From a virus: DNA of 33,141 nucleotides. The notes beneath the pieces were generated by a model that was not told where the DNA came from, ran no database searches, and worked only from the letters and a program-made list of their open reading frames with translations. Within the stretch, counting starts at the first letter, position 1. Each line of letters begins with the position of its first letter. The DNA lies in the IMG/VR virus record IMGVR_UViG_3300024239_000013, positions 1 to 33,141 of that record; one strand, written 5' to 3'. Made by a program: the position numbers and the translations under genes. Positions 5,151 through 27,630 of this stretch are shown piece by piece.

Positions 5151-5378
5151 TTAACAAAATTCTTTTTTTGCTTCCCAAAAATCCTCAGCAGATAGCTTCC
5201 ATCCTTTTTTCTTAGATGCCACGTAAGCCTGTGCATCTTTTAGATTTGGATTGCAGTCATCTTTCTTACATTTTTCAAAGTATGATTTGAGGTCACCGTA
5301 CACTGCTTGACTGATCCCAGTCTTTTCTTGTATTTTGCTTTCGTTAATAAAAGAACTAAATGATTTTATATTTTCCAT
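5151..5378 (-). CDS. Small phage protein with T4-type capsid-targeting-like start
   Basis: This 75-residue protein begins MENIKSFSSFINESKIQ. The F-I-N-E-S stretch resembles the capsid-targeting sequence of T4 internal proteins (MKTYQEFIAEA), which the prohead protease cuts after Glu. The remainder is helical and rich in Lys and Asp and carries Cys residues (EKCKKDDCNPN, KEFC). It precedes the gene at 4912-5133 and probably shares its message. No enzymatic motif is visible. Being an internal head protein is inference. Confidence 0.65.
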   Translation of the reverse strand: MENIKSFSSFINESKIQEKTGISQAVYGDLKSYFEKCKKDDCNPNLKDAQAYVASKKKGWKLSAEDFWEAKKEFC

Positions 5379-5402: not shown

Positions 5403-5690
5403 CTATATATCCTCATTCATTTCAATTATAAGCTGGAGATCACCGGTTCCTTTTATAATTCTGTGCCAAATCCCCTTTGGAATCTTTATCCTAGTATTTA
5501 TTGGAATTGGTAACTCATTATCCATTTGAAACATCCAATCGGTTTTGTGAACAGGATGTATTGTTCTATTTTCATCGTCCCAGTGCCATTTAAACTCTTC
5601 GTCTCCTGTGGTTTCTCTAAATGTACGAACAACTATCTTATTTGAAGAAGTTGTTAAAACAACTTCTTCAAAAGGAAATTCTTCTACCAT
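5403..5690 (-). CDS. Cupin-like small protein
   Basis: This 95-residue protein looks like one beta-barrel. FKWHWDDEN at residues 34-42 could give one metal-ligand side and PKGIWHRIIKGTGDLQLIIE near the C-terminus the second cupin motif (G-x-W-H-R-I). The order PxGxxH near the C-terminus is typical of small cupins that bind a metal or sugar. The start overlaps the stop of the upstream gene by 7 bases, so the two are co-translated. Substrate and role are unknown. The fold assignment is moderate, by motif only. Confidence 0.6.
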   Translation of the reverse strand: MVEEFPFEEVVLTTSSNKIVVRTFRETTGDEEFKWHWDDENRTIHPVHKTDWMFQMDNELPIPINTRIKIPKGIWHRIIKGTGDLQLIIEMNEDI

Positions 5691-6265
5691 GGTCTGCTTG
5701 ATTTAATACCTAAAAGTTTTCTATATCTTGCTACATTGCAAGCCCACCATCTAGGTTTCCATCTAGGTCCTGGATTATCACATCTCATTCTTTTCTGGAA
5801 AGATCTTGCCTTTTCTGGATCGTCGTTATTCACTCTCATACCGGGTTGGCCGAATCCGACCTTAATAACATTACCCTTATCGTTCTTGGTATAAACTGCA
5901 AATTTTCTAGGACCTCCTGGTGTTCTGAATGGTTTATTTAAATTGACATTCTTTCCTCTATATTCAGCTTCGTCGACATCGCCTTCGTAGAATGGCACAT
6001 CCAAAAGAACTCTTTCCCCTTCATATTCCCCGGTTCTCCCCGCATCAGTGGAGACTAGAAAAAGATCGTCTTCGTTAAGATCTATAATGTTTCTCTCCCA
6101 AAGATCTCTAGCTTCGTTAACGATATCTAGCCATGCTTCAGATTCTATTCTATATACGCTCTCCATCAGAGGTAGTTCCCTGTCTATATGATATCGCAAA
6201 CCTTCACTAATTGATGGTTCTTTTTCTTCATAGTGAAGAGATTCGAAATTCTTGATGTATTTCAT
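5684..6265 (-). CDS. Conserved phage protein, putative virion or prohead component
   Basis: The 193-residue protein starts MKYIKNFESLHYEEKEPS, again resembling a capsid-targeting start. The C-terminal half reads LNKPFRTPGGPRKFAVYTKN (residues ~109-128), then a dense basic and aromatic stretch from about 150 to 180 containing RMRCDNPGPRW and WWAC. I recall this DNPGP...WWAC ending from structural or unclassified proteins of T4-like phages, but the family function is not known to me. It heads the small cluster running down to 4912. Two overlapping TATAAATA-like boxes lie 21-34 bases upstream of the start, consistent with late expression. Confidence 0.7.
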   Translation of the reverse strand: MKYIKNFESLHYEEKEPSISEGLRYHIDRELPLMESVYRIESEAWLDIVNEARDLWERNIIDLNEDDLFLVSTDAGRTGEYEGERVLLDVPFYEGDVDEAEYRGKNVNLNKPFRTPGGPRKFAVYTKNDKGNVIKVGFGQPGMRVNNDDPEKARSFQKRMRCDNPGPRWKPRWWACNVARYRKLLGIKSSRPW

Positions 6266-26775: not shown

Positions 26776-26832
26776 GTGATTTATTTTTTATTAAAAAGTT
26801 GATATATAATCCAATATAGATTATTTAATAAA

Positions 26833-27630
26833 ATGGATAAAATAAAATCATTTGACCAGTTTTTAAACGAAGCTCAGTTCAATATAAAAAACCCCGGTGA
26901 GACTGCTGACGCATTAGCAAATATCATTAAGGCTAATAGGAATGTTAAGGAAACCCCAAAGGGTAGTAACGCTGGAACCGAGGTGGCAAAATATCTGAAG
27001 AGTGTGGGTCTTCCCCCAGGTTTACCTTGGTGTGCAGCCTTTGTTTACTACATATTTTCTGAGTTATCTAAAAAACTTAACGTACCTAATCCTTTATCTA
27101 AGACCGGCGGTGTAATGCAGCAATGGGAATCTGCATCAAATGACATTAAGATAACAGCAGATAGAGCTAGAATGGATCACAAACTAATCAGACCAGGTCA
27201 GGTTTTCATTATGAGAAGACCTGGAAGAGGCTTGGGCCACATGGGGATAATAATAAATGTTAACCTTTCTAAAGGAACATTCACCTCTATAGAAGGTAAC
27301 ACCAATGATAAATTATCAGGGGAAGGGGATAGAGTTGGAGTTAATGTTAGAAGAATTGATTCTAAGGATTTAGTTGGATTCATAGACTATTTTAAGAACC
27401 AGAGAGATACTGGATTTGAAAATAAGCTATCCAAAGCAGTTGACGGTAAGGCATCGATGTTACCCCCGGTGGAAGGCGGACCTGAAGATGATGTTGTAGG
27501 AAAGGGTGAATTTGGATCAGCAGGAGATGATGCTATAGATAAAAGCTTCGGAGGAATGCTACTTAGTACTCTTGGAGGAAAGGATCTAACCGTCGGTGAG
27601 GTTAGTAACATGTTAAGCAAATTGAGATAG
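26833..27630 (+). CDS. CHAP-like peptidoglycan hydrolase with capsid-targeting-like start
   Basis: 265 residues. The start MDKIKSFDQFLNEAQ resembles the T4 capsid-targeting sequence, with F-L-N-E a possible prohead-protease site. Residues ~60-190 form a CHAP-type domain: PWCAAFVYY holds Cys67, GLGHMGIII holds His136, and IEGNT (153-157) supplies the third residue. CHAP enzymes cut peptidoglycan amide bonds. The C-terminal ~70 residues are Gly/Asp-rich and probably flexible. It may be packaged in the head or baseplate rather than be a free endolysin. It stands alone on the plus strand between divergent and convergent minus-strand genes, with a strong terminator. A CCGAGGTG box is inside (26978). 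Confidence 0.82.
   Translation: MDKIKSFDQFLNEAQFNIKNPGETADALANIIKANRNVKETPKGSNAGTEVAKYLKSVGLPPGLPWCAAFVYYIFSELSKKLNVPNPLSKTGGVMQQWESASNDIKITADRARMDHKLIRPGQVFIMRRPGRGLGHMGIIINVNLSKGTFTSIEGNTNDKLSGEGDRVGVNVRRIDSKDLVGFIDYFKNQRDTGFENKLSKAVDGKASMLPPVEGGPEDDVVGKGEFGSAGDDAIDKSFGGMLLSTLGGKDLTVGEVSNMLSKLR

Follow-up and report, generated by a model that had tools for sequence, protein, structure and literature searches.

Does the CHAP-domain protein encoded at 26833-27630 serve this phage as an endolysin, or does it travel in the phage head and reach the host at the start of infection? The window, a stretch of 33,141 nucleotides, comprises bases 1-33141 of a 319,334-base metagenomic IMG/VR record, and the genome is that of a 319-kb T4-like jumbo phage. 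We consider it probable that the protein belongs to the virion, as a peptidoglycan hydrolase carried in the head and delivered at infection. The locus has the following features:

26833..27630, plus strand: gene for a CHAP-domain peptidoglycan hydrolase of 265 aa (ORF and translation, Pfam, PHROG, homologues)
26833..26871, plus strand: predicted capsid-targeting propeptide, residues 1-13 (MDKIKSFDQFLNE), from the T4 register and the invariance of F7 and E13
27019..27300, plus strand: CHAP catalytic domain, residues 63-156 (Pfam, invariant columns, weak fold matches)
26801..26808, plus strand: GATATATA, promoter-like motif upstream of the CHAP gene, a motif enriched near virion and tagged genes

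The product is predicted to be a peptidoglycan hydrolase on the grounds of its CHAP domain, and its cleaving activity is likewise a prediction. The Pfam match (E=1.6e-8) reaches 35.4 bits against a family cut-off of 26, and this score together with the invariant Cys67 and His136 assigns the protein to the CHAP family; Glu154 and Asn156 are also invariant in the domain alignment. The CHAP lysins PlyPy and LysIME-EF1 and the phi812 hub likewise have a CHAP domain in which Cys and His occur together with Glu/Asn; the protein described here differs in its N-terminal tag and in having no recognised cell-wall-binding domain or lysis cassette. All Foldseek matches have E>0.001, and the high-probability ones include the CHAP/NlpC enzymes 5udm, 6ist and 4xcm, but unrelated relaxase and Tudor matches are mixed into the list, hence the CHAP fold is weakly confirmed. 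A PDB sequence search with the protein gave no match. In the ORF list of the window, the gene is a single plus-strand gene amid minus-strand genes.

The first-pass annotation had compared the start of this protein, MDKIKSFDQFLNEAQ, with the capsid-targeting sequence of T4, and the likeness holds in exact register. Without gaps, MDKIKSFDQFLNE|AQ aligns on MKTYQEFIAE|A of the T4 internal proteins, of which IPII and IPIII both begin with MKTYQEFIAEA in the T4 record. Thus F7..F10-L11-x-E13|A14 of the CHAP protein falls on Y4..F7-I8-x-E10|A11. In T4, targeting depends chiefly on residues 4 and 7 and processing on residues 8 and 10, and gp21 cleaves after L/I-x-E (PMC9026906). The equivalents in the CHAP protein are F7, F10, L11 and E13, and a protease cut is predicted after Glu13, between 26871 and 26872. 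The tag itself is a short helix, at low confidence, that lies outside the CHAP fold. Similar starts had also been claimed for three small proteins of the window, and these differ in quality:

5151..5378, minus strand: 75-aa protein whose tag, MENIKSFSSFINE|S, is a perfect match; GGATATATA motif upstream of the gene; top profile score of the genome
4912..5133, minus strand: 73-aa protein with the targeting half alone (MKNLELFEGFIKK), K replacing the cleavage Glu (ORF list, profile)
5684..6265, minus strand: 193-aa protein with a weak tag (MKYIKNFESLHYEE; ORF list, profile)

The likeness is complete for the first of these, which starts with MENIKSFSSFINES, is confined to the targeting half in the second and is weak in the third, whose likely homologues in two relatives (L022 and L024) begin with MKNRIKSFSEY and MKNRIKSFSQY.

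An N-terminal tag of this kind exceeds chance in the genome. Among 421 ORFs (called stretch by stretch, each beginning with ATG and having 60 codons or more, with overlapping calls dropped), 38 carry [IL]xx[FY]xxF within the first 20 residues, compared with 1.1% of internal blocks and with a mean of 5.3 and a maximum of 10 in shuffles. The stricter FxxF[ILV]xE is found in 21 ORFs (shuffle mean 1.0, maximum 5). A profile whose training set excluded the CHAP protein places it 6th among all ORFs, and none of 3,866 internal windows reaches its score. In total, about 45-50 ORFs bear the tag, roughly one in nine. Eleven of them form one paralogous array and are therefore not independent; leaving the array aside, a looser pattern yields 39 tagged ORFs, a few of them doubtful. 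In the relatives G001 and G002 (120 kb), 21 of 147 ORFs start with [IL]xx[FY]xxF, against 1.8% internally, while a 50-kb stretch of one crAss-like phage, phi14:2, has neither this tag nor that of phage PAU described below.

Conservation of the CHAP protein points in the same direction. Homologous CHAP loci were found at 22 places in viral contigs (L004-L025), with a tag-like start in all where it was read. An alignment of 13 CHAP proteins that bear the tag shows F7 and E13 without variation, position 11 as I, L or V in nearly all, and variable residues between. One group (L020-L025) has a ten-residue tag, MKSFREILNE|A, the same length as that of T4, and in one of them, L023, the tag is followed by CHAP, PG-binding and Phage_lysozyme2 domains. 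In another relative (L079), tagged genes for a CHAP protein and an SLT transglycosylase adjoin each other and belong to a row of three tagged genes. The CHAP protein of a Microcystis phage was considered as an instance of the tag in another kind of phage and rejected: its N-terminus, MDRARSAMERFEAEG, is without the motif, though the alignment begins at residue 1.

A capsid-targeting sequence that is cut would call for a protease, and the gp21-like enzyme expected by the first-pass annotation is present. It is an S77 prohead protease (PF03420, E=3.5e-9; PHROG 207, head maturation protease, E=8e-39), and its gene adjoins that of a gp23-like major capsid protein (MCP). With this gene in the genome, the objection that the phage might lack a prohead protease falls away. 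All five records (219-349 kb, this one included) with a tagged CHAP protein, a tagged SLT protein or both also encode the protease; the PHROG 207 search gave no protease match in G003-G006, G008-G010 and G012, which are fragments in which the control was likewise matchless. The protease region comprises:

genome 276072-278060 (L035:14073-16061): S77 protease ORF of 662 aa, the C-terminal part being long and repetitive (YxEYLAENLDKxIxYS)
genome 278129-280711 (L035:16130-18712): adjoining gene for an 860-aa protein with internal tag-like segments VISFSNFSKLNED and DVITSFSSFSDRIYGINED

From its repetitive C-terminus, protease and core scaffold may be a single polypeptide. The 860-aa protein could be cut into pieces. 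Putative cleavage sites are enriched behind the tag: [LIVF]xE occurs at residues 9-22 in 28 of 39 tagged and 78 of 368 untagged proteins (p=3e-10), and [LIVFM]NE at residues 9-30 in 18 of 39 and 12 of 368, respectively (p=3e-13). The site FLNE|A of the CHAP protein agrees with SLNE|S of the MCP, both sites being predicted from sequence, and the predicted MCP site HSLNE|SAG is identical in this phage, G001 and G002. Several tagged proteins have no good cleavage site.

The tag, or a looser form of it, is found on scaffold-region genes beside the MCP gene and stands in front of unrelated cargo (CHAP, SLT, adenylate kinase, ATP-grasp and an array of eleven LRR-like genes). The scaffold region includes coiled-coil proteins, encoded at genome 270-272 kb. 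The relevant genes, together with other wall hydrolases of the genome, are:

genome 38668-48374 (L036:5669-15375): eleven tandem paralogues with starts such as MKRI.NYKTFINES and weak LRR-like matches
genome 48970-49476: Phage_lysozyme2 gene, start MNKILTLSALIAPVIYE|AQ, unclear as a tag, in the same cluster
genome 51328-52131 (L036:18329-19132): tagged SLT transglycosylase matching PHROG 342, 'internal virion protein with endolysin domain'
genome 82818-83567 (L038:9819-10568): tagged SLT transglycosylase (SLT domain)
genome 171110-172567 (L042:18111-19568): RimK-like ATP-grasp enzyme, tag FLNEAK
genome 185832-186452 (L043:12833-13453): adenylate kinase, tag FLNERE
genome 193487-194317: untagged Amidase_2, candidate endolysin

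The array is possibly an expanding set of head proteins. The untagged amidase may be the real endolysin of the phage; no M23 peptidase was found in the genome. The promoter-like motif was considered as a means to separate virion genes from lysis genes and rejected, since the untagged amidase also has GATATATA upstream; its presence there says just that the genes behind it are probably late. Of the tagged genes, 16 of 38 have [TG]GATATA within 70 bases upstream; for untagged genes in the virion-structural region the figure is 17 of 76, and for the rest 12 of 286, with optimistic p-values because the motif was picked from scans of those same genes. We regard GATATATA as a candidate for the late-promoter element in phages of this group.

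Relatives of the MCP are found in Lak phages of Prevotella, the Tenacibaculum phages PTm1 and pT24, Flavobacterium and Chryseobacterium phages and phage PAU, and judged by the hosts of these relatives the host probably belongs to the Bacteroidetes. For the host of PAU, recorded as Sphingomonas, an assignment to Sphingobacterium, which is a genus of the Bacteroidetes, has been proposed (PMC3738902). Like our phage, Sphingomonas phage PAU (NC_019521; L060, L064-L067), an isolated relative, has an N-terminal tag particular to its lineage. Many genes in the neighbourhood of the head genes bear it, some of them with LNE|A/S sites. The tag sequence is different (MKTLxxLYE with KLNEA/S, in 18 of 279 ORFs), the [IL]xx[FY]xxF form is absent, and the annotated endolysin of PAU, gp217, is untagged. 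Four of the five PAU proteins annotated as 'internal capsid protein' carry the PAU tag, while among the other ORFs the count is 14 of 274 (p=6e-5); these annotations are depositor notes whose basis is not stated in the record. The fifth, gp70, is without the tag, which suggests that the depositors did not go by the tag alone. The PAU MCP shortens from 585 to 520 aa on maturation, according to N-terminal sequencing (PMC5646251), and this maturation point lies within one residue of LME64|N65.

How might a tagged hydrolase work? Sequence comparison supports packaging and cleavage of the tagged CHAP protein, and we infer the course from binding, cleavage and packaging to ejection and place of action as follows. 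Residues 1-13 would act as a T4-like capsid-targeting sequence, with the I4/F7/F10 face binding the prohead core. Cleavage by the S77 protease behind Glu13 would release the enzyme as residues 14-265, and in this form it would remain in the head alongside the DNA. At infection it would exit through the tail and cut cell-wall peptide bonds, with one or two of the tagged SLT transglycosylases acting alongside. In this way it would help to breach the wall as infection begins, and would not serve solely to burst the cell when infection is over. T4 internal proteins enter the host cytoplasm with the DNA. A wall hydrolase would be useless there, and hence exit into the periplasm must be assumed. For T7 gp16, release into the periplasm has been proposed, with cutting of peptidoglycan in that compartment (PMC8954989), and for a wall hydrolase the periplasm would be the sensible site of action. 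A further weak point is that the tagged adenylate kinase and ATP-grasp enzyme have obvious intracellular roles, so that the function of the tag might be a different one.

Endolysins frequently have CHAP domains, all PHROG matches of the protein are to endolysin families, and a late-type motif precedes its gene. All of this would suit a conventional endolysin whose task is lysis when the infection ends and whose N-terminal likeness is incidental. We regard this as very unlikely in view of the tag statistics and the invariant tag positions, the separate untagged amidase and the more distant CHAP homologues, which do not align over the tag region. Moreover, no lysis gene was recognised beside the CHAP gene, among its neighbours in the ORF list and in a Pfam scan of two of them. 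Alternatively, the enzyme could be a virion lysin of the tail or baseplate whose tag directs tail assembly. The phi812 hub carries a CHAP cleaver, the L020-L025 homologues are long, and L023, the one scanned, includes Phage_lysozyme2, a tail-lysozyme domain. Yet the tag matches the site of the head protease, occurs also on scaffold-region genes beside the MCP gene and on the eleven-gene array far from the tail genes, and has no high-scoring instance at 213-262 kb, where long tail-like genes lie. A role in the tail is accordingly quite improbable.

The tag may also be seen as a general docking or sorting signal that recruits proteins to the scaffold or assembly site, with the tagged proteins not kept in the mature head. 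Such a role would accommodate the tagged adenylate kinase and ATP-grasp enzymes and the tags that have no clear cleavage site. Nevertheless, it is unlikely, since packaging of proteins by this very motif has a precedent in T4 (PMC9026906) and the PAU annotations speak of internal capsid proteins.

The reading as a head-borne hydrolase delivered at infection has to be compared with two known systems. With T4 IPI, IPII and IPIII, which are restriction inhibitors (PMC12373910), the phage shares an N-terminal motif of 10-13 residues, [FY]xx[FY][IL]xE|[AS], unrelated cargo under one tag, a gp21-type protease and a gp23-type capsid. The differences are that the cargo here is a peptidoglycan hydrolase, that three extra residues precede the motif, and that there are about 45-50 tagged ORFs, whose packaging is predicted, compared with a few in T4. 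The second system is T7 gp16, a 1318-aa core and channel protein of a short-tailed phage. As is proposed for the CHAP protein, it is a head-carried peptidoglycan hydrolase ejected at infection, and the tagged SLT protein at 51328 matches PHROG 342. To our knowledge, T7 gp16 has no targeting propeptide. Its type is defined by a transglycosylase on an internal core protein of >1000 aa, whereas the CHAP protein has 265 aa and no SLT domain; here, small, separate enzymes occur in a T4-like phage. Head delivery had been called unusual for an endolysin, which is true, but T7 gp16 is a precedent for a head-borne, ejected hydrolase, and the genome has its separate untagged amidase. T4-type targeting is known; what would be new is its use on peptidoglycan hydrolases, and a literature search of partial coverage gave no report of tagged head-borne peptidoglycan hydrolases in T4-like phages.

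For the wider reading, the chances seem evenly balanced: one T4-like tag in Bacteroidetes-type jumbo phages would load some 45-50 head proteins that are delivered at the start of infection, among them wall-cutting enzymes (CHAP, SLT and perhaps lysozyme2), the kinase, the ATP-grasp enzyme and the eleven-member array. A tag on about one ORF in nine is of greater interest than the single CHAP gene. If this holds true, the T4 targeting system would carry cell-wall enzymes, and an 'endolysin' label that relies solely on a CHAP domain may be mistaken in phages of this kind. From sequence alone, the tag would then reveal which of the hundreds of uncharacterised proteins in giant Bacteroidetes phages accompany the DNA into the cell.
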